A stretch of 64,000 nucleotides of DNA, taken from the NCBI GenBank assembly GCA_023078555.1, contig CM041200.1:6239361-6303360 (forward strand). Direction: 5' to 3'. Below, piece by piece: positions 13,304 to 64,000 of this stretch. How positions within the stretch are numbered: position 1 is the first letter of the stretch; each line of letters opens with the position of its first letter. A program made the translations under genes and the position numbers. Source of the stretch: Ulva prolifera. Taxonomy: Eukaryota > Chlorophyta > Ulvophyceae > Ulvales > Ulvaceae. The notes beneath the pieces were generated by a model. That model did no database searches, had not been told where the DNA came from, and saw nothing but the letters and a program-made list of their open reading frames with translations.

Positions 13304-31164
<17,861 letters not shown>

Positions 31165-38400: not shown

Positions 38401-41400
38401 CCAGACCCTAGCTCACAGCGAAGTGCATGCCTGGCGCTGCTATTCTTCCTATACCCGCACCTCACAGGCTCCTTACCGCTGCTGCGGCAATACTGCTGTG
38501 CCGCGCAGCAGTGCATCGTGCCCCTGTCAGCCTCCGGCACCCCGCAGACGCCGCTTCATGCCGGCCGCGAGCAGCGAACAGTCTCATGGGCCGAATCATA
38601 CAACAAGGCGCGCAAGTGCTGCAAGTACAAGCCCCAGCCGGATTGCGAGGTTCCAGAGGATCTGTTAGATCAGCTGCAGCTGTTCCAGAGGCAGCACCCT
38701 CCACAACAGACGGACTTGGGCCCGCGTGATGTGATGGCTTACAGTAGCTCAGGCACTGGGGTGTGGTGGCCTGATGCCGATCTCAGCCTGAGGCTGTGGC
38801 AGGGTGGGCCCATCACCCGTTACAAGACCACCCAGTTCACTGACCCATTTACCTCTCAGGATCCGGTTGCTGTTGCCGGGTCGTTCACAGAGGGTGGCAA
38901 TTTCCATGCGTGGCTACAGATTGCTGCCACCACGCAGCCATCAAAGCTGTGTACCGAGCGCTGTGCCGGTGGGGCGCACTGCTGCGGGAAGCACCTTGTT
39001 GAGGGTGCACCGAAGGAGGTAGAGGCGACTCGAGGCAACCGGGTGCTCGCCAAACAGGCAGGCCGACCAGCGTCGATGTCGGTGGAGCAGTGGAACGCGT
39101 TTGCGTCGCTGCGGGCGTACCCTCTGCAGCAGCTGCGGACGCTGTGCGTAGCCCTGCGCGAGGGCAGCCTGCAACTCGACTGCCCCCAGGTGTGCACCCC
39201 AACACCATTTTGCGTGCACAGTGATCACCTGTTTCTCACATGTGTTACAAGAGCATCACCGGAAAGGATGGGGTATCGCTCTCGAGTCGAGTGCGTCTGC
39301 ACGGCTGACCTCTGTTGCTGCGCCCGCTGCAGAAGGGAACACATCGTGGGCTATTTCATGCGGCAGAAGACCTGCTGCTGAAGCAGCTGCTCATGTGTAG
39401 GTAGCTGCAGCGGTGAGGATGGCGCTCTATCATGTTGGCCAACTGAAGAGATCTGATAAAATTGTGACACGCCTTTGGCTCAGCAACAGCCATGACCTGA
39501 AGGCTCTGTGTGATGAGGTGGTGCGGCTGGCAGAGGCAATGCACTCGGCTCCCAAGCTTCTGCTTCAGGTGCCTTCTACCAGCATACATGCACTGCGCCA
39601 TTACCAGACAGCCTTGTGACCATGGCTGGCACCAGTGATACGCAATAGAAGTTGTAGCCATAGATATGACCGCATGCTTGTGTTGCCATCATGTAGTTCA
39701 ACATCAGGAGACTATGGTACCAGTGAAATACACGCCGTCCCCACTAGAAGAATGGCGACACGGTGAATCGGAGAGCTGACGTAGTGTGTGCGGAGGGGCA
39801 GTTGGAGAGCCTTCGGAGAATCGGTGGAGGCCGGACGTAGGTTGCTAGGAGTATCGGAGACTTGTGGCGGAGGTGGGGCAGAGGCAGGTAGGATTTTCCG
39901 ATTCCCGTCCGGTACGCCCCAGGGCAACGCCTTTTGTTACTAGCCTGCCTTCGGAGCCCAACCGGAGGATGTACGGAAGAAAAGACGGTTCCGTTGTGCG
40001 TCCGACGGAGGGCCTACGGACGCGTGCACTAAATTTCGGATCCGTCTCGGATCCGTATGGCGTCCGCCTCGGGGATGCGGGAAATACAGGCTGGGCCGTA
40101 GGATTGGTGACCTCTTGACGTACATGTATCCGTCTGGCTTGAGATAAACTCACGTATGGTTTCGAGGAGTGTGCACTTGTGGACACGCAATGCCTGACGT
40201 CATGGGCGTCATGGGCGTCATGGGCGTTATTACCGGATCAGACCTGGTCGCGCACATGTAAGCGGAGTGCAGGAAGGATCGCGGTTTTGTGGAAGCATGA
40301 TGTGGTTGTTTTCTTTGTTATGAGGCACGTGAACACGGGGCTGCAGTTGGCAATAGGCCTGCATTCATATGCTGTAGGTGCTTACATGGCGCGTGCTTTC
40401 CTTGTTCATCGCTAGATTCATACATAGCTCACACTCCCACACATTTCCTCAGGACAGACTCCCTGACATTCCGCGGACAGGACCGGGCAAAGGACCTATG
40501 TCTACGTACAGGCTGCAAGATGGTCCTGAGGTGGCCCAAATACAACCATACAATGCACTGGCATGTCTACTCGTCCTCGTCCGGGAAGTCGTCAATTAAG
40601 GAGTCTTGCACCTTTGACAACTCGGCCTGCATGCAATACCAGCTGCATGAGTGCACGGCTCTAATGCATTCGTGGTCTGAGCGACTGTCACACAAATAGT
40701 GCTACAATTGCAGGCATTGGTGTCACATGTTAGTTCAAGTGTATCGGGGTAGTGACATACCGTCAATACAGCAACCTGCTGTTTTAATTTCTGCACACTC
40801 GCACCCTTGCTCTTGGGCTGATGCCTTGCCAGCTTAGCCTCGCAATCCTCTATCTTTTTCCGAATATCCCTGCGCGCTTGTAGGGCGGCCTCCTTCTCTG
40901 CCTTGGCCTTTCGCTTCTCAAGAGCTTTGTTGGACTTCTGCAATGTACAGGCGCTCTTACACCTGGTCTGATGATGGGTGGGGCAAGTACAATCGGACTA
41001 GGCGTCAATTGGCACAAATCATAAGAGGACGTACCGGCGCTGCGGCTTGTAACTCCATCTCCGGGGACTCGCATCGATCGTCTGCCCGCTGGGGAGAATC
41101 AGGCTCTTCCTCTTCACCCATCTGATCGTGACCCACCTCTTCCACGTCACGCAGGTGCTCACTGTCCTTATCAGCAGTGCGGTCTGCCCTTGGATCTAGC
41201 CCTGGCCGCCGGGGAGAAAAGTCAGCGAGCATTGTGCGCCGTCCGCTGTTGGAATGAGTGCCCCGTCTTCCTGACTTCGATGCGGTAGGAGCCTGTACAC
41301 GCATGGCTGCCTCGAATGATGGCACATGCCGCTCACACAGGCGTCCGTACAATCCCGGTACCACTTAATGGTCAACCTCAGGCGGGCAGTACAGCGTGTG

Positions 41401-44400
41401 GTGAGATTGTACCTTCTCGGTCTTCCTTTGTCTCTTGCCCCGTTGGACGGGAGAGTCAGCGGTCCCTTCGAGGGCGCGCCGGGCCGCAGCAACCTTGGCG
41501 ATTCCTTCGCACACATACTCACCGTCCTCCATAGCCCAGGCCTCGGGGGTTTTCATGGGTTCGCTATCGATAGGGAAGCGGTCTCCTCTCACGGTGAACT
41601 GCGCACGAACCACATTGGTTGGAACACAGTCGCCGAATGGCAGGTCAGTGGCCATGCAAGTGCGGATTCAAGCAGGCCGCGCCGCGCTGGAGTGGCCATT
41701 CGGCGAATGGACACTCCGGGCGCGTGCAGTGCAACACAATGCATGACGCGCTGGAGTGGCCATTCGGCGAATGGCCACTCCGGGCGCGTGCAGTGCAACA
41801 CAATGCATGACGCGCTGGAGTGGCCATTCGGCGAATGGCCACTCCGGGCGCGTGCAGTGCAACACAATGCATGACGCGCTGGAGTGGCCATTCGGCGAAT
41901 GGCCACTCCGGGCGCGTGCAGTGCAACACAATGCATGACGCGCTGGAGTGGCCATTCGGCGAATGGCCACTCCGGGCGCGTGCAGTGCAACACAATGCAT
42001 GACAGGCTGGAGTGGCCATTCGGCGAATGGCCACTCCGGGCGCGTGCAGTGCAACACAATGCATGACGCGCTGGAGTGGCCACTCGGCGAATGGCCACTC
42101 CGGGCGCGTGCAGTGCAACACAACGCAGGACGCGCTGGGGTGGCCATTCGGCGAATGGCCACTCCAACTCTGACCAAGGTGGAGGACATGCCTTGGTGTT
42201 CTGGAACACATTCATTGCCGCGAGCAGCTTCCTCTGCTCGCGGGCGCTGGGATTCCTCCGCAGGCCCGTGTTATGGTCCCACGCCCGTCTCGCATACTTC
42301 CTGCACATCGGGTCACCTCCGTTTGGGCGGATACTGTGTGCTTCCCTTCTCCGCCACCGTTGGGCACGGTGTGACGATACGTCACAGTACGGGGAACAGT
42401 GGGCTGAGCTCAGCACACTGTGGCAGGTGTCGTACACAGGCTGTCTTATAGTATATAAGCAGCTGGACCTTAAAGGGTAGACGACAGATCTCATAGTATA
42501 TAAGCAGCTGAACCTTAAAGGGTAGACGACAGATCTCTTCTTCTATGTCTCTTGACTTCACAGTCGTTACACACGGCAGCAGGTACGGCATGGGCACGGC
42601 AACAGGCACGGCATAACCCGAGCATCAGCAGAGGCACACTCTTTGGTCACGGCGTTCAAATGGGCGTGCTGGCGGTAGAAAGCATGATTGATATTCGTCG
42701 CAGCTTTGTACGCTTCACCTGTTCTGCCGACCTGTACACGATACCCGTCACTGCATACTGACCGCGAATGGCGACTCTGACGCGCCAAGACACAACACTG
42801 ACAGTCGGTGGCATGGGATCCCGTGGGCCTGACGGGGTGGTAGTGGACCCCAGTTTGCAATCACGTTGTTAGTCGGAGACAGCAGCCGTACCCCATGTGC
42901 AGCTTTGCCGAGTGCGTCCGCCCGCGTTTTCGTTAGAATACTCCCGACCCACACCTTCTCGTCGTCTGGGAGGGCCAGGTTCACTAGTCCCTGCACCTTC
43001 TTGCCTTGCGTGTGGGCATCGGCCATTCCCGCCACCTTGGATCTCATCCCTTCCGTCCACATCATCACCGCATCCTTCATCGTTTCCCACCGCCTGTCAG
43101 CTTCCGGGTCCCCAGTCAAGGCCGTAGCTGTGGAGTGTGCAGTGCCGACTGCTGCCGACGCTTGTCCCACGCTCCCTCTGCCCTTGCCCAGCGCCTTCAC
43201 CAGCACGGGCGGCTTCAGCAGTCCAGCGATAGTGCCTTTCCTGAAGAAGTACCTTACGCACGTCATCAGTTTCTCGACACTGTCGATATCAACGGAGCTG
43301 TCTTTGTCGACGGTTGACGTCAAAGTCAACCCGTCGACGCCGGCACCTCTGCTCCACACGTTGCTGACCAGCACGTCAAGCATCCCTGCTCCGTTGTCTG
43401 CGTCATCTACAACTTCTTTCTCGATGACGACGGGCGCCGCGCGGAGGAACGTGAACTGCAGGTTGGACATGGTGGATGATTAGACAAAGCGGAATTAACA
43501 CACGTCTATGGCCCGTACTGTGGATGGTCGTATCGTAGGCACAGCTAACATATCGCGTCATTCGCACATGCTTTGCTGCTCCGTGCTTTGAATGGTATGC
43601 CGATGTAGCGTCGTCGCGCGGTCCGCCTTCAAAGGTTTGGCTGCCTCGATACCCCGGCGCCTCGCCTGGGATTGTGGCGTCAGTGCGAACATGGGATGCG
43701 ACAGGGAGGTCTTCGTGGGACGTAATGCCATCATAGGGACGACAAACACCAGAGGCCGCGCTATCGTTGAACATCTTCACAAGAATGCTTAAGTCCGGCT
43801 GGCTACCATGGCTGGTTCGGCGGATAGACTGAAGAGGGCGGAGGTGAACGAATTGGTTGCCAAAGCGAACTGTAAGCGCCTGATCCCTCCCGAGCCGACG
43901 GGGAAGGAACCGTTTAAATACCAGTGTCTAGGCTGTGGTGAGAAGTTTCAGAGGCACAACACCGCCCAAAACCATCACGGTCCTTGCAGCCGTCGACTGA
44001 GTGCAGCAGCCGCATCGCGGAGAGCCGCTGGTGGACACGACGACGCGGGCCCAGACTCGAGGCCAGCCGCTGGCCCGACCTCCGCTACTGCCGATGATGA
44101 CCGCAGCGGCAGACACGACGGGGCCGGTCCCTCTGGGAGATCCCCATCACCTCCAGACATGGGGGGTCCCCCCGATGAGCCTGCCCACTCCGACGACCTC
44201 TTCGACGTGCGTACCTTCGGTAGTTGACCGTGCTAAGTCCCGGTTTGCCTGATCATGATGCAGATCGGCATGACAGCGGCTCGTGATCACGATGGCCATG
44301 GGTGTCAGCGCTCCTGTCCCTCAGCTGTTTCTTGCCTGCTCGCCCAATGCAACTCCGAGGTGTTGGGATTGTGTACAGCTGCCCCCACCGTCCGAAAGCG

Positions 44401-47400
44401 ATCACGCCGAGGGCCCCGCACAATATTCAGACGACGACTCAGACTTCTCAGACGCCGACTCCATTGCCTTTTCATCAGAGACGGACTACAGTTCAGACGA
44501 ACCTGAGGTGTGTCCACATCTTCCATTACATACAATGCTGTGAATCAGCTCGTACTCCTCCGTAGGACACGCCTGATCGTTGCACATGCAGGAGGCGGAT
44601 GACGACGGCCCGGACCCCACCACAGGGGCCCGGAAGGGCACGGGCGCCTGGTGGCATGAGCAACGCATGAAACACATATACACCGGCAGCGCCCTCACCG
44701 TCCTCACAGTGTGCATGTGGATTGCCCAGTTGAAGAGCCTCTTCCGCATACAAGACGTGGTCGTCGACACGTGGTGCAGGTTCATACATTACCTCCTGCT
44801 ACCCGATGGAAACTTTTTCCCTCCCTCCTTCCACCTCGTCAAGGCGGTCTTGGGTGTCCCGCCTGTTTCCTCTGTAACGCGCCACGTTTGTCCCCAATGC
44901 TGGACCTTGTTCCCCCCACTTGATCCGGGTGACCATCACCAGCATCTGGCGGACACCTGTGGAACCCCAGGTTGTTGTCAACAGCGATTTGATGTCGATC
45001 TCACAGGGAAGGGTGTCCCTGTGCGCTCAGCTTTCTTCTTTGGCGAAGAAGCCTCGCTGAAAGACCTCCTCCTGCAGCCGGGGCTGCTGACGAGCGTACG
45101 GGAAGCCAGGGCAACAGCTGTCAAAGACAAAAGCAGCTTCCTCAACTCCCCGGCTGGAAAGGCCCTCAACCTGGCGTGTGGGGGCAAAATCCTGAAGCCA
45201 AAGCATAGGGAGCTTGTCCTGCTGTTCAGCCTCGGTGCGCTCCACCTCCTCATCTGAGCAGGTGGCTATCACACCGCATCGGCACGCCTATGCAACTCCG
45301 CGAATTGAGACCCTCTGCCTCGTGTCCCGACAGTCGCTTTTCCTGCAGGGGGGGACGGGGCCCAGCTGTACGTCAACAAGCAGCACGGTGTCACAATCTG
45401 GGGGATCCGCCTGCTTGACCTGCCGCCCCATCTCTCAAGTACCAATGTGGCCTGGATTCCCCTTGGAGTGGTGGAGGGGCCATCCGAACCAACATGCATG
45501 GCCAGCATTCTGGAGTCCGTGATGGCGTTCTTCAAGAAGCATGATCCGGGCGCGCACTCACCTTGTCTTCCTGGTCACTGCCGGGTGATGTGTACAGTTC
45601 CCGATCACGTAGTGTCTGGCCCCCGCACCACGTGATGGCTGGAGTGCAGGAGCTGGGGGTGAGGCACTCAAAATCACACTGCCCGGGGGCGAGGTACTGC
45701 ACGTGTGGCCGGTGCTGTGCTGTGTGGAGGGGGATATCCCATGGCTGGAGAAACTTACCAACAGCATCGGCCATACAGCGAAGAGGGCATGTTTCAGATG
45801 TGCCCAAAACGGCGTGTGGGATTACCCCTCCAACACTGTCAGGTCCGGGGTGTTCACTTACGTTTGTAATCTCTTTCCTGCTAGTGCTGTCTCACGTACC
45901 TGTCCTGCTTATAACTGCTATCATGCATGCCACACAGGTGGATGGGACACCATCACCCTCTGCACCAGCCCGTGCCCTGCTATGCCGACGGGCCTCTGAA
46001 AGGGAAATCACTCACCCCGGAGGAAGAAGCAGCATCCTCGGCTGCAAACCCCCGGATGGTGCCTGGGAGTGTACAACCGGACACTGGTGGCAACCCCCCA
46101 CGGACCGCGTGGTCTGAGCCCCGGCATGTGCAGCCCTCGTCCTGGGAGTCGGACAACCGCTTGAAGTACTCGGCGGCAGAGATCCTGGCCAGGGGCCGAA
46201 AGGGCGACACGATCGCTGCCCAGGTGCAATTCCATCTACAGTGTCATCGAATGCAAACTGTGCACATGCGGCCTACTCCCCTGCCCCCCCTCTGTGCGCC
46301 GCAACTCATCTTGCCAACCCCTCTGACACCGAACAAGCGTCGTTGGTGATACGGCTCTTTTCTTGTGGTAACCCTGGCCAGGCCTGTGGTAATGCAGGTC
46401 CACGCACCAACCTTGAAACGCTATTGCGACCGGAAGACACCGAAGTCCAGGGCCAAGCTCGCCAAAGATGAGTACAAGCTACTGGGGGTGAAAGGTTCTC
46501 CGCTGTTCAGTCTCCTCTCCTACTTCAAGTACGAGCACCCCCAGCCTGCTGCTGCCTGCCTCGCCCTTGAGTCTGGAGTTGATTATGAATTACGCTGTGG
46601 CGTTGCAGTCCCTGCCATTTCTTCCGGCTCGGAGTGGCGCACGTGTTTCTGCTCGGTGTGCTCATGGACTTCTGGAACCAGTGGCTCCCTCCCCTGGGCC
46701 GGAAGAAGTCCAAGAAGGCGCCATTGACTGGCCTCCGGGCCCTGTTCCGACTGCCAGAGGATGTCGTCAAGGCGATAGCTGCCAGAGCGCCCCACATCAT
46801 GCAGACCTCTCTTTTCAAGAAGGTGTACACCGACATCACCAAGTGCGCAGTCCCATCGCCTGCACACCCTGCTCGCATCCGAGGCTGCGCCATTTTTCGG
46901 ACTGTTACTTGGACACAGGAACCATGTGCACTCCTGTTGAAGCATCCCGTCTGAGTCAGGGTGACTGTTTGCGTAGGCACCGCAGTCGCTGGCTCATGGA
47001 AGACTGGCTGGCCTTCACCGAGACATTCTCGCTGTACCTCCTGCACGATCTCCCGTGGAAAGCCTCCGAGAAACGCATACGCAGCGTGTTTGAGCAGTCG
47101 TGGGGGCTCCTGCGAGCAGGGGCCCTCTACTTTCTCAGATATGAAGAGGGTCAGCACACACCGGCCCGAATCACGGAAGCACAGCGATTGCTGCTGCAGT
47201 ACGCCAAACTGGCGGAAGAGACGTTTGAAGGGGCTGCTCTCAGCACGTACAAGCTGCATCTGGCGGCCAGTCACCTACCGGATCAGGTGAGGTGCTGCGG
47301 TGCATCCTTCTTCAGTCTTGAATTCTGGATCGAGCGGATGGTCCAGCTCCTGAAGAGACTGATCAAGTATCGATCGACTCGTTGCCCTGAACAAGTATAT

Positions 47401-50400
47401 GTGAGCGATGAACTGCTGCGCCGCACATGTATGCGGCTGTTGCATGATGCAGCTTCACTGCCTGCTGCCATGACTTCACTGTCAGATGCCATAGCGACTG
47501 AGAAACGCCGGCGGGCACGAACTCGCAATGGAAGATCCGCTGACGGGGAGCAACCAATTGACAGTGACCGGATCACCGGCAGGGTCGTGGGGGTGGGCAG
47601 GGCCCTAGCCCAGTCTGAGACTGCGGCGGTCCTCCCCCTGGACTTTGTGGGAGATAATCTGACAGGGTTGCCGTACCTCCTCTTCCATCAGGACTCCCTA
47701 CAGGACGAGGGCTGGCCAACTCACAGTCGCCTGGGGGTTGGTTATGCACGTCAGGTGGCCATCCACCGAGCTCTGGGCCTGAAGGTGGATGGCAGTGTTG
47801 ATGAGGCTCGCCGTGAGGGCACAGTGACACTTATGAAGTTCCACCAGATGCAATCCCGCGTTGCAGACATGTTCAGCTGCGCGCAACAGTGTACGCAAGG
47901 GAAGAAAGACAACAAGTGGTGCCTCTTGAGGTACCTCATTGGGGGGGACGGGGACGGGGGTGGCGGGACAGTGACGTATTTCGTCGGGGAACTGCAGTAT
48001 TTCACGAGGGCGTGTCTGCAGCCCCGGGATGGCGTGTGTTGCGTGTCATGTGTTGCGAAACCAAACCCATTGTACCTGGGGGTTGCTGATCTGTATAATT
48101 GCACCTTGCCAGCCACCCCGGGAGCCCGCGCCCCAGATCCCGTGTTGAAACGTCCCCCCGAGTTTTTCGGTGTGGCGGGTGCAAACAGGGGGTCTCGGGC
48201 ATATGCCGGCAGATACGTCGTAGACTTGGACGCAGTTCCATGCCAGTTAGTTCCAGTCCGGAGGGTTGCACAAAATGTGCAGTATTGGTCCACAGCGAAC
48301 AAGGCTTCTGGCCGAACTGTGTAATTGTACAAGACCACCGCCAAATGCCTTCGTCAGCAATCCCAGTTGATGGCAATCCCAGTTGTGCCCACTTTGCATT
48401 TTCCATACTTGCCAGAGGGCCACGGGGGGGACCAGAGTCCCCGCCAGTGCGTGTCTACAGGCGCCACCCTCGTTGGAGCCATACAACCCACGTCCTGCGG
48501 CGTGCGCTCGTGGCCACTTTCGCTCCCTCTTCAAGCGTCGGTGTCGTCTGTTAGTGCACGTCGCAGGTCCAGCGGACAGATTAATGGTAGGTGCAAGGTC
48601 TGATGCAGTTGATGTAGGAAGACTGCGTCGCGATAGCGCGGATAGAACGTTTCTGTGCGGTGTACAGTCCACACGATGTGTGCCAGTATGATAACGGACG
48701 GGGACTTGCGGGCCTACCTTGCGACAATTCGTAGTAACCGTCAGTGTGACTCGTCTTTCAAGCGGTTCCTGGAAACCGCCCTGAAGGGTAACTGGACGCC
48801 TGGCCAGCCGATCCCAGCACTAACGATCTGTACCCGGAAGCCCGGGTTCCCGATAGACTTCATGGCCAACGCCTACCTATTAACGACTGTAGATGTTACC
48901 ATGGTGGGCTCTATAGTGGAGGCCGGGGGGGAAGGGTTAGACATGTACCTGGACTCGATCCGGGCGATGAAGGAGAGTGTAGAGGCTTCACACACCGCCG
49001 ACCACGCCGCGCGGGTAGAGCAGAAGATGAAATCCCTCTGGCACGACCTCCGGATGATCGCATTCGAGCGCGCGGTCCATACTAAGGCCCCGTGCAAGCC
49101 AGAGGAGATCGTGCTGTACCGGTCTTGCCAGGTCGGCGCGGGCATCATAGAAGACGCTGGCGGCCTGCTCGAACGTGTGCGGCACACGGGCGGGACAGAC
49201 TTGATCTGCGAGTGGATACAGTGCGAGGCAAACTTCGCACGGACTCCAAATCCTAAGTGGCCTGTCTCCGAGGTTCATGTGGGGCCTCTGCAGGCGCCCA
49301 TGTTGGCGTTACAGCTAGAGAGGGGTGGGGCGGGCGGGTCGCACGGTGAAGACCGGGGGGGACCCGACGCCGCTCTTGGGGGCGTCACCGGCACCGCCAC
49401 AGCCCCAGGACCGGGTGCAGCCGCTGCCCCGCCGCCAACAGAGTCCAGCGGCACCAGCATAGGCCCGGGTGACCGAAGGCAGGGGCGTGGCAGACACACC
49501 CATCCGCGGCAGCAGCAGCGGGTTGGCGAGGCACGAGGGGCACGGGCTCCGGGTAGAGGGCGCGCAGATCGGGGCACCAGTCTTCAGCAGCCCGCCCGAA
49601 TTAGGTGGCCCAGGGGGGCACGGGGTGCCGCACGGGGGGGGGCTGCGGCCGTAGCGCAGATCCTTAGCCGGGATCATCCGCCGCCCGAGGGGCCGGCTGC
49701 AGTAGGGGTTCCCCCTGTGGCGTTGCCCCAGCAGTCCCCACAGCCGGTTGGCCCTGTGAGGCCGCCGTCGCCATCGCGGACCAGTGGCTGTCTGCCGCCG
49801 CCGCGGCTGGACGAATCCGCTACAGCTATCGAAACCAGACTAGCTGCCGCAGACGCGGGGCCGGCAGGTCCCCCGGATGATCCCCCCGCCTGGGAAGGGC
49901 CCATTGCGGACCCCCCTGCCGAAGGAGACAATAAGGCGAGGTCGGACACCGATGCCAATCCGGTTCCATCCGTCACCCCTGATGATGGCCCTAGCGAGGG
50001 GCCCCAACCTGCCCCAGTCGGTGCAGCCATCTGCTCCATCGGCGAGGCCCCCCCCCCGCTCCGGACCTCTCCGGAGCCTGCTTGTCCAGCACCCGGTCAA
50101 GAGGGGCCAATCCAGTCCGCACCTCCTCCTGCCCCGGACGTCCCGGAGCCTTCGGCCGCCGGTAAGGATAAGCCGCGGCTGTCAGCATCCCTCCTGGCAC
50201 ACCCTCCGGTGGTGCCGCCGGATTGGGTCACAAACATCCCTGCAAAGCCTCCGGGCAAGCTGAAGCAGCAGTGGGGGTCCACTTCCAAAGACGCCGGTAC
50301 ATCCGCTGCCGACACAACGCAGGATGCAGCTGAACCGACCGTAGTGTCCTCCGACGACGACGATGGGGGGAGGTTCCCGAATGTGGTGGGGGGTGTGATC

Positions 50401-51284
50401 TTGCAACTAGGGCATTTTGGGGATGCTCGGGTGTCTGTGACAGTCGGTCTGGAAACCCTCGCGAGAGGCTGGCCCACCGCATGGGCCGAGAGTACACACG
50501 TTGACTACGCCTTGAGTAGGTGTGTCGCACTGGCCGGGCAGGGCGTCATTGCAACGCCTAGCCAGAATATGGCTGGGATATGTACTGGGGATGCGGACGC
50601 AGACTGGTCAAGCGGACGCACCAGATTTATGGGGCGGTGGTTGTTCAAAGCTCACACCTTTGAGCAAGAATGTGTCTTAGTCCCTGTCCCCCGGAACGGC
50701 CACTGGATGTTGGCTGTCATCTGGCATCCATGTACGCTCTCCCGCCGCAGCAGACTTTGTGATGAGGTAGCCTGCTGTGCGTAGGACTGTCATATTGCCC
50801 CCCGCCCCCCCATACCCCCCCCCCCCCCCCCACAGTAGGCCCGCTGAACGCCACTACTGACGTTTCAGCCATAATGCAGGGCGTATGAAGCAGAATAAGG
50901 CGCCGACTGTTTCGTTCTTTGACAGCCTGATCAGCGCCGGCTCAGGCACCGCTGAACGGGCCAGGGACGTCTTGAGTGAGGCTCTGTGCATGGCGCTGGA
51001 CTACCCCGAGGGCCGGGCCCCCTCCCCCCCGGAAGACCCCGCATCTACCACCCGGCCTCGGGTAAAAGCAGTGGGCCGCCCACACAACGTCCGACTGGCC
51101 ACCCGGCCGACCGAATCCACCGCTAGGATAACCCTGAAGTTGGCGAAGGTACAATGCCCACGTCCCACTGTTCTCCTGCGATACCATCCACACAGATGCT
51201 GTCCTCTGACCCTTGACAGTCGCGCATATTACCAAATGGACTGCAATCGTTGACACAACAGCACCCTCTGAATGCGCCCACCTG

Positions 51285-51320
<36 letters not shown>

Positions 51321-54300
51321 TTCTCTGCCCGAACCCGGACAGCGTACTGCTTTGGAACCACCCCGCGTCCAAGGTCTGCGGTGGACTTGATCTGTTGACG
51401 TAACATTAGCATTATAACCGTCCCCCAATGGTGTCCAGGTAGGAGGAACCCCGCAGCAACCAAACGGCCACGACTGCGGGGTTTTCACATGCATGCTGGC
51501 CGACGCTGTGTGCGACGTCATCCACCGCATGCGACAGGAGGGGGGAACTGTGTTCAGCAGTGACATCCACGGTGTCGAGGCGACTCGAAGGGTCCTGTTA
51601 CTCACCAACCGCGTCAAGGTGCAGCACGCGGTGCTGTACCGTATCGTCCTCACTCGAGCCCTCATTCAAGAGTGGCACCGAGGCGGGAGAGGGGGCGACA
51701 AGTTGGGACACTTATCAGTCGAGGATGCCACCAAGATTCTAGCCGACGCTAGGTGGGACCGCCACCTCCAGACACCGCCCTTCAAAGACTTTTCCGAAGA
51801 GCAGCTGAGGTGCGGGCGAGTCGATGCACCTGCCATGTCCACCGCAGCATTGTCACCATCTATCCTCTGGCACCCCCTTGGAGGCCCGGTGGGGACCTTT
51901 GCCTGATGAAGCTGCTGGATCTGCAGGGAGTGGTACCTGCAGGCGCGCTTTGACGCCTTCCTGGAGACTGCGCGCCCGGTAGTGGCTACCCTGAAACAGC
52001 AGTATAACAAGCTGATGGCTAAATCGCTGAAGACGCGTTTATGAGACACTGAAGGGTGGCATCCGGGAGATTCCGACGCCACAGGCCAGGTGATGCCATT
52101 TCGCTGCAGCTGCACTGAACCTCGGTGTCTCGACTGCAGCGCTGCGGGCTGCTGCCAGGCAGGCACAGCTGAAACTGTTCTGAACCCATTGTCTACAGAA
52201 GACAAGACGCCACAGTTTGCGTACGGAGTTCGACTCAGTATTCTAATCGTTATTTCGTGTAAAAAATACTATCAATCCTCAACGGCTACACCAGGTCGGC
52301 GCTGTAGGATTAGAGGGGTACAACGGTCAACCCCTGCATTATAGCAGAGCGTATGGCACTAGTAGACGGGGGTGCATCACTGTACAGTGATGTGGCCCAC
52401 CGTCCTTGTATTACCGTCGAAATGGGAATAATTTTGACGTATTCCCGTAGCATCTGCATTAACAAAGTTACTATGCTGATACTGCCGGGAAGTTCTACGC
52501 TTGATGGCTTAGCGGACACTGCACGCCGCATTAAAGTGTACTCCCACGCAGCTGTGCTACCGGCACCCCCATCCCCCAGGGACTTAGCTCATCAACCAGT
52601 ATTCACCACAGGCCCCCATCCCCCAGGGACTTTGCTCATCAACCAGTATTCACCACAGGATCCGGGGCTGGGACGGCTTCGCTGCCCTCTGTAGAATTGC
52701 GTCCCTGCACGGTCAACATCCCTGGGTACTGTACGTCTGCCTTGGGAGCGGGAGTAGAGAATTGGCCCACCACGGCCATGCGACAGACTGGCCAGGGGGG
52801 GTGGCGGGGGTTGTTTGCTTGGAGGAGCGCACCGTCTGAATCAGTGACACAACTTCGGATACAGTGCCTTCATCTGGTTGGAGCCCGTAAGCCGATATGA
52901 TCGACTTCATGCGGACTAAGCGCTCCGCTTTAGTCAAACCCATGCCGGCGGTGCTTACCAACATCAGGTCCACTGCCACGACAATGAGCCGCAGTTGAGC
53001 TGCACGCCCGACCGAACCACCCGGAGGGGATACGAAAGTGGCGGCCATGTGCAGGGTGGTCTTCTGCTCCTCGAAGGACTCGTCCACGGTTAGACGAACT
53101 GACCCCGAACTATCGTGCAGGTAGATTATTTGGGACGGCCTAGTCTCAGGGTCCTCTGCCGCCACTTCGTGCTCAGCGCAGCGGGGGTCCGCTGGGTCAG
53201 AACGAACCGAATCGTCATCCAAGCTGATGGATCCGAAATCGTCTGAGGAGTGGTCTTCCGGATACAGCACTGCCTCAGCGAGAGCATCTGCAAACATGGC
53301 GTCTGCTACCGGATCGTACACCAGACCCCCACTTCCTCCCGCACTGTCCGGTTGCATAAACCCTGAAGGTGTCGGTGCCGGTCCCCCCGCCGGCACGGGG
53401 ACAGGCAGGCCAAAGGGGCCCACTTCTGGACGACCTGTAGCGTCCTGACCCTGCAAGGGGATCCCCGCAACATCCCCCACAACTTCCCCCCCCACTGGTG
53501 GCTTCAACCCGCCACGCGCCGCCATGTCTGCCATAGCTTCCGCAGCCCAGCCCCCCCCAGCCCCCCCCCCCCCCCCCGCCCCCGCCACCGTTGGGCTCAA
53601 CCCGCCCTGCCCCGCCAAGCCTGCCGTAGCCTCCGCGTCTCCCCCCCCCGCTGCCCTCCCCTCCACGGGACTCAGTCCCGCCTTCAGCGCTGTGACTGGC
53701 AATGCCTCCGCAGCCCCCCCAGTGGCTGCCACCCTCACAGTGGGGTTCAATCCCGCCTTCGCCGCCGAATCTGCCACCGCCGCTGCTTTCCCCCCCAAAC
53801 CACCCCCCGCCCCACAGTCAGGCTCAACCCCCCTGTCACTGCCGTGACCGGCAGAGCCTCTGCGGGACGGCCACACGCATCCCCCCCCCGGCTGGGAGAC
53901 TGCCCCCCCCTGCCCCGGCCCCGCAGCGGCACCCGGGCCGAGCACCTCTGGCCCTGTGGCCACCTTGGACGCAGGGCGGGTGGTGCCCCTGTCCCCACCG
54001 GATTCCTGAGTGTCGCTGCCGCCGGTGTCGGTGCCGCCAGCGGCTGTGTCCCCCTTCTTGGCTGGTGGCAGGCCCATCTTACGCAGCAATAGCGACTTGG
54101 TACGTGCTTTAGCTACCTCGTGCTTCCCGGTTCGTCGACGGTTGCGCTGGCCAGAGGCAGGGGTGTCACCGGCACCCCCTGCCCCAGGGGTAGGCTGGGG
54201 TGGTACGACAGGCGGCTGCCGCAAGTCCTCGGGCAGGGTGGCGAGGATACCTTCGGGAATGTTATTGAGCTCCGCCCTGTAAAATTAACCAGAGTCGCCA

Positions 54301-57300
54301 ACAACAAACAGAACACGCTGGTAGTCCCAGGGCCCGTGCATGTCAACTCTGGATCAACTAACAGCAACACATGCTCCCGTTGGTGAAAGAACAGGAGGAT
54401 CTGATGGCCAGAACTCAGACGCATACGACTGAACATGCAGGGAGCATGTTCTGCAAGAGACACTCCTGGTCACTGTAGGGACCATCACCGGGGGTTCGCA
54501 CATGTAACACTTTGAGCTCTGCATCCCCTTGGCCAAGGACAGCTTGGCAAGCTCTTCAGCGCCGGCATAATCCCAGTCCTTGATCCCGGGGAATGATCCT
54601 GGCCTAAGGCGGACAACCGACGGGGATGCTGATTTCCCGGAACTGCTCCCCGCGATGTCTTTCTGCACCACGCTAAGGTACCGCCAGCTCCTGAGCGCCC
54701 AGTGCCACAGCGTGTGGGGCGGGCACAAGGGGATCAGGTCGTCGGCCAGCCTCTTGACGGGCTGACCATACCCCGATTTCACCAAACCTGGATGCACCGC
54801 GTGGTTCAGACGAGAGCACTGTCTGCAAAGCTGAGTCTTGCCCCACCTCGGGGGCTACAGCAGGTAACAACTGAATCCTGAACAATGGAGACGAAAAGGT
54901 TGGTAGCGCACTGCTGGTATTCACCGTGCACACCAGGATGGCGGCAAAGGCGGGATCCAGGAGGCTGGGCTCCAAGACTGGAATGTCCTGCACACGCCGC
55001 CTCTCCAGGACAGGCGCCCCCGGGTCCCCTGTCACAGCCGCGGCGACGAGGCGCCGATAAGCATGCATGAACAGGTGGACCCCATTCGTGGCGAAGGACG
55101 CCAGTTCCGTAGAGGTCAGCTGCAGCCCTTCACATGCCCACATGATGTGGGAATTGAATGCCTGGACAGAACTCCACGCCGGACGGAGAGCTCGGGCTAC
55201 TCGGTCACCCTGCACGGCGAGATCCAGGTATACTCAACAATTGGGGACGGGCAACAGCAAGCATATACAGCTCTGCACAGACACGCAGCTCTCGATGGCA
55301 TGTACAGGTCAGTGGCACCTCGCACCTCTGCACAATCAAACAGAGGGTGCTCCGCCGCATAAGCCACTACCCAGGGTCCTAAGTTGTCGAGCGCGGCGAC
55401 AAACTCACCGAGGATCTTGACATCCTGCACGCAAAGAGACCTGACTACAGAGCTCGAGCCCAGGCCGGTGACAGGCCAGTCTTGAGGGATCAACAGAAAC
55501 AGGGACAGAAACAGGGCCCGGGGCACCATGGCCACGATCATGCATGCGATAAGGCACAAATGCCGGGTAGAACAGGACAGCACACAGACCAACAGGCAGT
55601 CCCCCTGTCCATGCCGGAGTCATGTTAAGTCACCGGAGCGCACGAAAGCTTTGATGAGGTCCGAGTGCGAGGTGTGCATGTCGACTAACACCGGCGCGCC
55701 CGAGGTCAGCTGGAAAACCGGCTGTGCAGGGACCCCGTTTGTGTTCGCCAACATCCTGGGGCACCGGTCCCCAATGTGCCGTGCTATCGACTGACACGGC
55801 TCGAGCTCATCTTCATCCATGCTCTCGAGCTGGGCGCAGTGTGCGTGTTCATACAGCACCCACGCCACCAGCGGGTTCAGGTCCTCTGGGAGGTTGGATG
55901 TGGGTCTCTCCCTGCTCCTGGAGGACCCGTGACCCTCCACCGCGGGAGAAGCCTTTCCGGCTGTCCACAACTTGGTGCGATGAGGGGACAGCCCAGACAT
56001 GAAGGAAGCCCAGGCCCACACGACGTGTCGTGGGGTGGAGCAATGAAACACTGCACCGAGAACACCCATGTCACTTGTGCACGAATGCGGAGGCCATGCC
56101 GCGCACGATGTGGGGACAGCATACGTGACTGCGTTACATAACAACATGCGTGCAGAGAGCACACCGTCTGGAGGCGGGGGGTCCGGGCCTTTGCGCTTTT
56201 CCCCCACGTTGATCTGAGGAAGATCGAACCGCTGGCGAAGTTCCGGATCTCTCTCCGCTGTGATTCTGGTCTTAGGGAGGCCAGACTCACATACGTGGCC
56301 GGTGATCTCAACCTGCACAAATGGCGGCACTGAGTCCTGGCCCCACTCCACAGGTTAGCTGGGCCCCGTGTCAGTGGACTGGCAGTAAATGCAGATCGCG
56401 CTCAGCTGATCCACCAGCACACCGGGCACACACACCTCTTTCTTTCCCAACAGGGGCTTCCACCGCCGGGGCACAAGGCAGCCATGTGGGGTCTTCCCTG
56501 TGCCCTCCCACGAGGACACGAGCATTGCCTGCTCGTGCAGCCAGGAGGAGAGCGCGAGACAGGTAGTGACAATCACTTCCTTGGCCGTACCCAGCTCCCT
56601 CGTCCGACTCTCCACCACGTCGTCTCGCAGAACCACCCCCAGGGACCACCACACCGACACCCCAGGACCGGACAGTGGACCGTCGTTGCGGCCGACGCGG
56701 GCACGATCCGTAAAACGCCCGTCCCTTGAAATTAAAGTACCCACTACAGGGATTCTCTGAGTACGCATGCGACCAACGAGTAAGTCTCCGCTGCGAGCGG
56801 AAGTAGGCCCATTCTGGGTACTTGACAGTCCTGCAACTGCTGCAGCATGGCGCGGATCCATTGTATGCAAATAAATATTTTGGTCACTGCCGGAAGCGGA
56901 AACTGGTCACGAGCAGCGCAGCTAGGCGAAGGAATACGACGCCAGCAGGGACGCGGTGCACTTAAACGCCAGGTGAACTCCAAACGCTGGAAGTTAGCCG
57001 TATCATACACTATATCCACCGTTTGTCCCTTTCATGAAGCACGACCCAAGTTGGGGGCCCCGAATGCAAAGGCGCCTGATCACTCGGGTAGGGCAGGGTG
57101 AGATCAACCGCGCTGGAGCGGTCATTCGCCGAATGGCCACTCTGTACCACCGCATGCATTCGTGTCCAGGAGGACGGGCGCACGCCTTACCTGGAGCATG
57201 ATGACGTAACTCCGCCAGAGTGGCCATTCGCCGAATGGCCACTCTGTACCACCGCATGCATTCGTGTCCAGGAGGACGGGCGCACGCCTTACCTGGAGCA

Positions 57301-60300
57301 TGATGACGTAACTCCGCCAGAGTGGCCATTCGCCGAATGGCCACTCTGGACCACCGCATGCATTCGTGTCCAGGAGGACGGGCGCACGCCTTACCTGGAG
57401 CATGATGACGTAACTCCGCCAGAGTGGCCATTCGCCGAATGGCCACTCTGGACCACCGCATGCATTCGTGTCCAGGAGGACGGGCGTACGCCTTACCTGG
57501 AGCATGATGACGTAACTCCGCCAGAGTGGCCATTCGCCGAATGGCCACTCTGGACCACCGCATGCATTCGTGTCCAGGAGGACGGGCGCACGCCTTACCT
57601 GGAGCATGATGACGTAACTCCGCCAGAGTGGCCATTCGCCGAATGGCCACTCTGGACCACCGCATGCATTCGTGTCCAGGAACCTATGGGCACGCTTTCC
57701 CGGCCACCTTTCACAGGGCGACGACCAACACTACAAGGACTGCTGCCGAGCCTGACATACGGACCAACGCTATCTTGGGCGATGCAAAAAGTCACCGCTG
57801 TTGTGAGCCTGCCTCCAGCTTCCTGCCGCTTCGTCTCCTGCCCAAAGTCGATGTCAGTTGCCATGAGTATGGGTCCACATATACCTGCACCGTGTCCAAT
57901 CCAGTCGTTTCCAGATCCGCATGTAGTAATAAAGTAACCAATAGTATCATTCGATCCACTGTCAGCGCGGGCTTGGCCCGAAGTGACCTCGTATCATGGC
58001 AGCCGGCGCAGACATGCGAAGGCCACTTGCAGCGGTAAGGTACGTCCACAGTCCGGCGGAATATACCTGGGTCGGCGGATGGTTCGGTGCCAAAGTCCAA
58101 GGTCCATCCGACTGCTCGCATCCGATGACGTCGGAGAGGTATCAGAGAGTGAACGGACTTTCGGAATCTGGCGGACGACACCCGGATCCGTTTCAGTGTG
58201 TCGCCATTCTCCTAGGGCCCTGGGACGTGCATCGACTCTACCCAATGGTGCCTGATGATGATCTATGAGCCGCACCATTCCATGCTACCTGTAGCATTCT
58301 ACGTCATGTGCGCAAACACGAGTGTGACATCTATTTTAAGTAGGACAATCCATCTTGTAAGTTAACATACACACGGGCCGTAGATCATGAGATGATGGCT
58401 GGACATCTCGACCGCAGCAACGATTGCCGTGCAAGTCGGTGAGCAAGTACACATGTTTGGTCCACCGACTGGCGCCGCTACCGTGGCTGCGGCGAATGAG
58501 TGTGCGCACGCGTCATGCGCTGTGGTTTGACTGCGACCTGATAATCACCTGTGCACATGCAGGGGCCATTGCTCTGTGAGGTTGCAGCGTACCTGGCCCA
58601 GTGCTCCCTCAAAGGCAAGGAGGTAGCTCGCAGCTGTGCTGCCATGGCCGCGAGCTGGGCAAGCCAGCTTAAGAACGAGATGACTGACCTCAGTACAAAC
58701 GCTCAACACAGTAGCACTGTTCAGTCCGATCTCTACAGCACCCTTCAGACCAAGCGTGCAATCGCGCATTGTTGTGTTGTCGTCTGCTTTGGCGGCGCGC
58801 CACATGCGTGCCCCGCCAGGCCGGGAGGCAGTGCAGCACTGGACATCGCAGACGCTGCAATGCTGCTGCTGCATCAGGTGCAGGCATGCCTGCACAGTGT
58901 GAGCCAGGGCAGCGGAGAGCTGCATGCAAGGCTCAGCGTGCTGACAGAGCAGTGTTCATGGGTGATGGCGTCGAGGGTTGAGGGCCTTTCTGCTGCAATC
59001 GAGAGCGACAAAGCCATTTTAGACTCTGCTGTACGAGCAGTGTTTGCAGACCTACCCAAGCACTGCGCCTGGCAGCCCAGTGATGGTCATCTTGGGTGCT
59101 ACATAGCCCAGGCCGAGGGCCAAGTGTACAGCATCAAACTGTGTACTGGCCAAGTGCTCCGTGATGGCATAGCGCCGGGCCACCTGCCAACCTCTATAGC
59201 ACAGCACTCTGCATATCAGCAACTCTTTGGAAGCGCCTCGTTTGAGGTGGCTCAGGTAGGCGGGGGCGAGCAGGTGTTCCGGACTGTCAAGAGTCAAGCG
59301 GGTTGTATATATACCTTCCAGCTTCAAGGCTGTGACCTGGTGATCTTTGAGTGCCCTGTTAATCCAGATACAGGAGAGATGCAGAGGGATTTCGAGCTGG
59401 AGCTGCTGCCATGTGCGTGCCTTTCGCTTGCATGCAAGCTCTCTATTTGCTTGACATGTGGTTTGATGCAGCACGCGACTGATTGGAGTGCGTCCAAATC
59501 CTCATTACTCCAGCGCATTCACTAGTGTTTGCTCCTGCAGCACACTGCAAGTGGGCTCCGCATCTGCCACCTCGGCTGAAGGACATGCACTCGCACTGGC
59601 TTTGCCGGACGAAGCAGGCTGTCATTCTGAGAGACCAGCAAATCATGGGCCGGCATACCCAATTCATGCTTGTCAGCTCTTCACCGTCGTCTCATCACCC
59701 AGAAGGCCTCTCACACATGATGAAGTGCTACTGTGTTCCTACACACATGCAGGTGTGCTCCAGGGTTGTGCTGAATATCATGCACTGCCCTCATAGGATT
59801 TGCTTGTGTATATGGCTGTCAGTTGCAATTAGATTCTCAAGGAAGCAACATGCCTGTTACTCATTGCTATGCAGCTTGAAAGCATTGGTTACACTTCGCC
59901 GACGTCATGTGCTGCTGCAGAACAAGGACTGGAGCGATCTGATGACAATGATCACATGGATGGAGCTGCTATGGCACATCCCGAGCAGCGGACACCCCGC
60001 ACTCTGTGTCCTCCAACGATTCGAGGAATCCCGCTTCATTCATGCGTGCACCAAGCCCACGTTTGTGGACGCAGGCAAGGCACCAGCAATCCTCTTCCAT
60101 CTGCCCCGATTCCACCTCCAGTTCGAGTTGCATGCCGGCTGCAGCATGCTGTGGTGCTCAAACTACTCTGGCTACTACGTCCCAGTACAACATGTCTGCG
60201 GGTCGACTCCCGAGTCCGCAGATCCAGCAGACCCGCTACCCCTGGTGAGATTCCACAATTTCCTCCTACTTCACCCAGATCAAGATTCTATGCCCACAAG

Positions 60301-62713: not shown

Positions 62714-64000
62714 GTATTGCACTCCATCTTTGGACGTTGGAAGCTGCGACTCGGAATCAGCAGCGGGGCTTTTGCGCAAACGTTGCCGTAACTGCGTTTC
62801 TCAACACGCATTGCGTTCCCCCGTCGCATACTTGAAGCTGTTCCAAATGCGAGTCTACGATTGCACTGCGAGCAATGGCGTCGATTCATGGATGCTGTGG
62901 GTACGACGGCATGTGCATCGACACTTGCCAGGTCATGCGCCCAGCCACGCGCTGCTGCCTGATGCACGCAAAGCAGTGAACAAACCTGTTCTTCCGGTTT
63001 CGGTGTACGATCATGGAGTTGGAATAGTCGGTGTGGGCCAGTTTGGTCGGGAGATTCTTTCCCTGTTGACGCGAAACTTAACTGCCTTTCCGCAGTGGCC
63101 ACAGCTGTGCAGAGCCCGATCGCGCTCGCATCGACACTTGTATTCACATCCGCGCTGTTGCTGCAATGCAAGCGAGAGGACATGCTCCTTTCCCAATATG
63201 CCAATCGATGCTACTGATTTGTGTTGGTACGTCGGAAACTACGTGGGTCGAGCTTTCAAAATATGCAGCGCGAGACTAGTGGGGGTGAGACGTGTGCTTG
63301 CCTTAGTTGTCTAGCAAGCAACGATCGCATAACAATGAATTTGAAAGGAGCTAGATTGAAACAATGTGGTGCCTGTAGCGCGACACAGTATGCTGCGAAA
63401 CTGATTTTCTGTAGTTCAAACAGATCACATGGCGGGATGTTTCTAGGTGCACATCGGAATTGCTCGGATTGCATCACTGCACCACCCGACCTTCATGTCA
63501 GAGGCTCTCCATGGACACGATGGTATGCATGGCACCTGTGACTGGGTGGCGTCAATTGCCCCTCACTGTCCTGTATGTGCATGTGTGTTCAGAGCTGGCT
63601 CTCCCAGTACAGATATTTACCTAAAAATGCACTCATATATTCTGCCTGCTGCTTTCTTCAGCATACAAGCACACGCAGAGTGCCTGCGCCATTTTCGTAA
63701 CATGTTACCACACACCCGGGCAGGCAAATCCTGACAACCTGCACAACAGCCAGCATGAATCTGATCGCTGATGTCCATGCATCACCTCTGGTAATCCACA
63801 ATCCATCGCATGCTATTATCATGTTGATGGTGTCATGATTTTGAGCAGCATGGCACAGCAGCCAGCCACACAAGAACGCCGCAGCACCCTGCAGTGAAGT
63901 TGTGTGTATGCAAGCTACAAAGCGAAGCAAACAGCGGATGGCAGCCCTCGCTATGGGTCGCTTACGCTCGGCCTGGCCCGCACAGGCTAGATTGCGCAAT
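62714..64000. other. Right end: no recognisable exon
   Basis: In A and B the next exon starts 215-252 bp after this donor. Here 1,287 bp show no LDExDxLL or QLVYAWG block in any frame. Reading frames present (for example around 63,221-63,541) match nothing I recognise. Confidence 0.6.

Follow-up and report, generated by a model that had tools for sequence, protein, structure and literature searches.

The window analysed here, a whole stretch of 64,000 nucleotides of Ulva prolifera contig CM041200.1 (positions 6,239,361 to 6,303,360), contains an 18,476-bp element (39742-58217) within an intron of a giant host gene. We are confident, if short of certain, that this element is a large CACTA (EnSpm) DNA transposon with the open reading frames (ORFs) of its main genes open, that it duplicated the triplet CCC on inserting into the intron, and that its family evolves by recombination between copies. 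Nine copies, that of the window among them, were compared over their full length and two more over 44.5-48.9 kb; each full-length copy combines one of two types of left half (L1 or L2) with one of two types of right cassette (R1 or R2).

The left terminal inverted repeat (TIR), CACTAGAAGAATGGCGACAC, and the inverted right end, CCCTAGGAGAATGGCGACAC, are identical at 18 of 20 positions, and CCC is found on both sides as a target site duplication (TSD). A first-pass annotation had placed the element within these bounds and flanks, and our measurements also bear out the intron sizes that it gave. The host intron in gene copy C is 18,994 bp long and falls to 515 bp once the element is subtracted, compared to 392 bp in the related copy A and 533 bp in copy B, both of which are GT...AG introns. 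Introns A and B were also considered as empty sites and rejected, since the three copies are too diverged to reveal the insertion point.

The left half carries a gene that we call g1 and the transposase gene, while the right cassette, which at ∼8.8 kb makes up nearly half of the element, holds an Ulp1-type cysteine protease gene and a block of minus-strand exons (Table 1). As this block may represent one or two genes, the five apparent genes of the first-pass annotation become four or five. The accompanying claim that this exceeds a typical CACTA element is fair when set against the textbook picture of two genes. However, published CACTA elements reach 10-25 kb in grapevine, where a ULP domain is present in some (PMC2528002), and an intronic one of 20.5 kb has been described in soybean (PMC2613891).

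Table 1. Features of the element and its surroundings, in window coordinates
Feature	Position	Strand	Remarks
Whole CACTA element	39742..58217	+	Left half L1 plus right cassette R1; ends recurring genome-wide, 3-bp TSDs
Left TSD	39739..39741		CCC
Right TSD	58218..58220		CCC
Left TIR	39742..39761	+	Contains half-site GAATGGCGAC
Right TIR	58198..58217	-	
Host intron of gene copy C	39569..58562	+	Element inside
Left tandem array	41683..42165		64-bp unit with 27-bp palindrome GAGTGGCCATTCGSCGAATGGCCACTC
Left gene g1	42748..43479	-	ORF of 243 codons stop to stop; codon-3 bias vs relative C1x (C1:4105936); metagenome homologues
Possible N-terminal zinc-finger-like transposase exon	43793..44227	+	C-x2-C...H by eye, only sub-threshold Pfam matches; inferred
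Transposase gene	44577..48324	+	Inferred exons 44577-45234, 45349-45573 (donor uncertain), 45650-45842, 45938-46223, 46398-46570, 46609-46842, 46977-48324
Exchangeable right cassette	48325..57115		Type R1 here
Ulp1-type cysteine protease gene	48646..51906	+	Inferred exons 48646-50766 (donor uncertain), 50894-51148, 51439-51906
Minus-strand coding exon block	52713..56906	-	One or two genes; blocks conserved between cassettes, moderate codon-3 bias
Right tandem array	57116..57681		102-bp unit, also with palindrome GAGTGGCCATTCGSCGAATGGCCACTC; start approximately at the right edge of the exchanged cassette

Ends, duplications and copies elsewhere

We searched the 88.9-Mb genome with both ends of the element, the resulting counts being lower bounds. 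The first 162 bases returned at least 40 matches (best 40 of 66 candidates scored) and the last 161 bases likewise at least 40 (best 40 of 72), which refutes the possibility, left to such a search by the first-pass annotation, that the element has no other copies. Besides those of the window, we retrieved 39 ends of each side. CACTAG starts all but one of the left ends (38/39), the remaining one reading CTATAG, and CTAGTG finishes 38 of the 39 right ends, the exception being a CTAGGG on contig C24 that is shared with the window.

Left and right ends elsewhere were joined into 27 pairs on the basis of contig, strand, and distance. In 21 of these pairs the two flanking 3-bp duplications are identical, their sequence varying from pair to pair, with a chance expectation of 1 in 64 per pair, and the window copy adds another case. 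The span between paired ends is 17.6-19.4 kb for 20 of the 27 pairs. Two shorter pairs, of 3.4 and 7.2 kb, have matching duplications and look like internal deletion derivatives, while pairs of 24-45 kb look like copies carrying further insertions.

An empty allele of the window locus, with a single CCC, was not found in a search with the joined flanks, which matched only the window locus and the right flank on contig C24. This contig matches window positions 50553-64000 at 98.7-99.9% identity (51286-64000 at 99.9%). Since the match covers the right flank, C24 duplicates the window locus and does not record an independent insertion; to judge by its sequence it is an unplaced allele or a segmental duplicate of this locus.

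For other insertions, we used 8 of 14 prepared flank pairs as empty-site queries, with the best 40 of 62 candidates scored, and obtained uninterrupted paralogous sites for four of the eight. The site of the insertion at C3:4848072 is crossed by C2:3906070-3906210 at 100% identity. Those at C3:6511769 and C1:3948780 lie in dispersed repeats and are crossed at at least 17 (86-98%) and at least 15 (85-99%) whole-block places, respectively, and that at C7:1769900 is crossed by part of a block (C6:706605-706717, 96%). Because the query contained the duplication once, these crossing sites show it as a single copy. No spanning match for the other four insertions was present among the matches listed.

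Two further observations concern the flanks. Three element-sized pairs (18.1-20.1 kb) carry unlike duplications, which might have arisen through crossovers in which two copies exchanged their flanks. Identical 30-base flanks are also seen at several element ends on different contigs (C9/C1; C35/C1/C7; C36/C9/C9), which indicates that element-bearing segments have probably been duplicated.

Genes of the element and its superfamily

The spliced transposase model has 1038 amino acids and is open in seven of the nine copies, and its exons show change biased to the third codon position when compared both to C1x and to other copies. Candidate aspartates of a putative D-D-E core that spans introns were located by eye in GGDGAQLY and VEGDIPWL, by reference to known motifs. 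When the window exon was aligned with eight database relatives, DUF4218 was detected in eight of the nine members (best E 2.7e-4) and was the only Pfam family there. We take the DUF4218 region to be CACTA-associated. The combination of this domain with CACTA ends and 3-bp duplications led us to file the element as a divergent CACTA/EnSpm transposon, even though Transposase_21, a protein feature by which this superfamily is defined, was looked for and not found.

A number of results weigh against our account of the element and its family. The spliced protein had no match to Transposase_21 (Tnp2) at E <= 1, and the DUF4218 match of the window protein itself (E 0.16-0.27) is under the cut-off. 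A structure predicted for the C-terminal half of the transposase (alignment A1) had a mean predicted local distance difference test score (pLDDT) of 47.8 and was discarded, as was that of g1 (30.9), and a fold search of the PDB with the C-terminal model produced no match at E <= 0.001. The intron 2 donor of the transposase as drawn is GT in L1 copies and AT in three L2 copies, and the intron 1 donor drawn for Ulp1 is not conserved in all copies. Six of the 27 end pairs, including the L2R1 copy C5:7269666, lack a matching TSD; among them, one spans 31 kb, one has a diverged-type left end, and one agrees at two of its three bases. C5:9214990, a second of the three L2R1 copies, begins with the altered CTATAG, and none of the 40 right ends listed lies close to it. 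Finally, the window copy terminates in CTAGGG where the family has CTAGTG, the difference falling on position 58216, the second-last base of the element.

The missing Transposase_21 match, both for the spliced protein and in a search of the algal genome itself, where the one sub-cut-off match lay elsewhere (C1:7017852), would also fit a separate superfamily that had arrived at CACTA ends and 3-bp duplications by convergence. We regard this as highly improbable in view of the ends, the variable TSDs, and the presence of DUF4218 in eight of the nine alignment members, and retain the assignment to CACTA/EnSpm.

For the protease gene, the spliced model (947 amino acids) matches Peptidase_C48 at E 4.3e-9, clearing the cut-off, and the last exon alone matches it at E 1.7e-4. 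The catalytic His, Asp, Gln, and Cys can be recognized by eye in GHW, FFDSL, and QQPNGHDCG, and exon 1, on the plus strand, shows codon-3-biased change among C1x and the other copies. The frame was checked by window coordinates in R1 copies only, as R2 copies could not be judged in this way. It is open in the window copy, C6, and C5b, while C7, C4, and C10 have a single stop 4-5 codons before the first donor as drawn, a position that points to a wrongly drawn donor rather than a broken gene.

The g1 frame is open over 206-240 codons in all nine copies. Its C terminus occurs in three lengths, with stops at codons 207, 226, and 241, which follow the left-half groups. We had considered g1 to be broken in six of the nine copies and rejected this, the stops at codons 207 and 226 of 241 being near the end. 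The close copies show no codon-3 bias for g1 among themselves. Neither g1 nor the minus-strand block has a Pfam match; homologue searches returned three unnamed proteins for g1 and two for one minus-strand exon.

The first-pass annotation had called the element autonomous-looking. This is supported insofar as the spliced transposase, the Ulp1 model, and the left gene are all open in the window copy. It is weakened by the base change at position 58216, which sets this copy apart from all but one of the 39 right ends retrieved elsewhere and makes its mobility doubtful; its own ends may be impaired.

Outside the element, the window holds three related giant genes, A on the minus strand and B and C on the plus strand. 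This family carries DUF3638, detected at E 2.4e-22 in gene B, to which the scan of that part was confined. The host region also includes a 300-bp run of the dinucleotide TG (16115-16414). As a clue to the host lineage, 90 bases at each side of six 500-base contig ends were inspected by eye, and no telomere repeat was recognized in them.

Left halves and right cassettes

The L1 left halves (window, C6, and C5b; and C4, C10, and C1a) and the L2 left halves (C3, C7, and C1b) are 92-93% alike. The cassettes sort the copies differently: R1 (window, C6, C5b, C7, C4, and C10) is 96.9-99.7% identical among its members and R2 (C3, C1b, and C1a) 88.9-95.4%, whereas R1 and R2 are 65% identical to each other. 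Beyond the cassette, the right ends are again 94.9-100% alike. All four combinations exist, namely, L1R1, L1R2 (C1a), L2R2 (C3 and C1b), and L2R1 (C7, plus C5:7269666 and C5:9214990). C1a agrees with C4 and C10 at 98.6-98.7% in the left half and at 65% in the right, and C7 agrees with C3 at 97.6% on the left and 65% on the right but with the window at 97.7% on the right. Each half rejects the tree obtained for the other (difference in log likelihood of 1252 and 7035; Shimodaira-Hasegawa p of 0); the approximately unbiased test on these trees used few replicates.

The break on the left falls directly after the TAA of the transposase at 48324, and high identity returns at approximately 57116, at the start of the right array. 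With a probe across 48324, 25 of 40 scored places continued into R1 (two of them shortened), 12 stopped at the stop codon, being R2, and three were distant; the reverse junction probe gave 12 R2, 25 R1, and three distant places. By identity, six of the 12 R2 places are C1a-like (97-100%) and six are less so (91-93%).

Near-identical, high-copy repeats are easily misassembled, part of the window locus is duplicated on contig C24, and C5:7269666 has unlike TSDs, all of which could suggest that the mosaic copies are assembly artefacts. We find this barely credible, because an identical break is seen at all 12 R2 junctions, which are spread over five contigs (C1, C2, C3, C4, and C9), and because the TSDs match at both ends of the recombinant or R2 copies C1a, C7, C3, and C1b, so that each of these represents one insertion.

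Marker sites that distinguish L1 from L2 are few and mixed in the 46.7-48.3 kb region near the junction, which indicates that the transposase end has also been subject to gene conversion. Under a broader version of this idea, the two cassettes would be old variants and the left halves would be alike through gene conversion homogenizing the transposase half, no cassette having moved as a unit. The left junction lies past the stop codon exactly where homology stops, as a conversion tract would give. We nevertheless consider this explanation unlikely: the L1/L2 differences persist over 39.7-46.7 kb, with each class carrying both cassettes, and homogenization would still require recombination to have placed similar left halves next to both cassettes. 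It differs from cassette exchange mainly in which half moved.

The origin of R2 can be approached through a third family, Y (C2:3914984-3924810). At the 3' end of the transposase gene, Y differs from four L copies by 0.19-0.20 at codon position 3, compared to 0.03-0.04 between L copies and the window. In the cassette, the codon-3 difference is 0.17-0.34 between Y and R1 and 0.30-0.48 between R1 and R2, and by probes the minus-strand region of Y is 85% like R1 and 74% like R2. In most exons R1 therefore groups with Y and leaves R2 outside, yet elements bearing R1 and R2 share one transposase, a pattern which suggests that R2 is probably a foreign cassette. Two parts of the cassette, along with the mixed marker sites near the junction, blur this picture: in exon minA, R2-Y (0.22-0.26) is as close as R1-Y (0.24), and protein identity in part 1b of Ulp1 shows no clear order (0.77 for C3-Y, 0.73 for window-Y). 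We tentatively raise the possibility that CACTA elements here are like modular phages, in which case an accessory cassette would be swapped as a unit between lineages retaining a common transposase, the borders of exchange being the transposase gene and the shared palindromic array, and R2 would be the foreign partner.

Arrays, proposed mechanism and related elements

Both arrays carry the palindrome GAGTGGCCATTCGSCGAATGGCCACTC in each of the seven copies inspected, and a left array of C1x has it with 1-2 mismatches; no right array was found in the stretch of C1x fetched (best 11 mismatches). The palindrome half-site, GAATGGCNAC, is also contained in both terminal repeats. Arrays and TIRs account for 27 of its 28 occurrences in the element, the single one elsewhere comparing with 0.09 expected from shuffling, and the remaining 45.5 kb of the window contains one. 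This distribution suggests that one protein may read both the termini and the arrays. In En/Spm of maize, subterminal repeats are bound by an element protein, and the TNPA motif is short and is not known to be a copy of the TIR. The arrays here would be comparable to those repeats if an element protein binds them, and unlike the TNPA motif the half-site recurs in the TIR.

We propose that the DUF4218-type transposase would cut at the CACTAG ends and move the element by cut-and-paste. An element-encoded DNA-binding activity, either the transposase or an accessory protein, would read the GAATGGCSAC half-site in both TIRs and in the array palindromes and bring the element ends together. An accessory role would fall to the Ulp1-type protease and the minus-strand proteins, most likely the removal of SUMO from host or element proteins or the relief of silencing. 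Exchange bordered by the transposase gene and the right array has, in our reading, reshuffled right cassettes among left halves, which hold g1 and the transposase. Homologous gap repair by synthesis-dependent strand annealing provides a precedent (PMC4423477), and the most likely route would be strand invasion with a switch of template as excision gaps are repaired.

Among the closest known elements is Tgmt* of soybean, a putative autonomous CACTA transposon of 20.5 kb that is likewise very large and intronic, with imperfect CACTA TIRs, a 3-bp duplication, and asymmetric subterminal repeats able to form palindromes (PMC2613891). Since such repeats are known there, the palindrome is a variation on a known theme, although in our element the spaced tandem units contain it as a perfect 27-mer, with a half-site common to the TIR. 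Unlike the element described here, Tgmt* has one complex gene with tnp2 and TNP1 functions, and the main text of its report is without words beginning ulp, protease, exchange, or gene conversion (PMC2613891). The Cactavine CACTA-ULP elements of grapevine, of 10-25 kb, include five families with a ULP domain, and one clade of families has similar transposases (PMC2528002). They resemble our element in these respects, but their ULP is described as a transduplicated domain, whereas ours has a multi-exon gene of its own within a reassorting cassette, in an element without a Transposase_21 match. An Ulp1 domain is also carried by KAONASHI/VANC Vandal DNA transposons, Mutator-like elements of a different superfamily, whose protein recognizes short motifs in the noncoding DNA of the element, which we presume here, and for which antisilencing is reported, a guess in our case (PMC13317346).

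Given the soybean and grapevine elements (PMC2613891, PMC2528002), a large intronic CACTA transposon with Ulp1 is fairly ordinary. The new aspect is the reassorting cassette, with the half-site shared by palindrome and TIR as a lesser feature. In the literature searched we noticed no account of cassettes passing between CACTA families; this is weak evidence that none exists.

The cassettes may be rival antisilencing or SUMO-directed counterdefense modules. As some elements are near identical outside the cassette, they provide a natural test of the role of the part that carries Ulp1, and in the half-site shared by palindrome and TIR, binding assays would have a defined DNA target. A family in which two deeply divergent accessory cassettes accompany nearly identical transposases shows functional modules being reassorted by DNA transposons.

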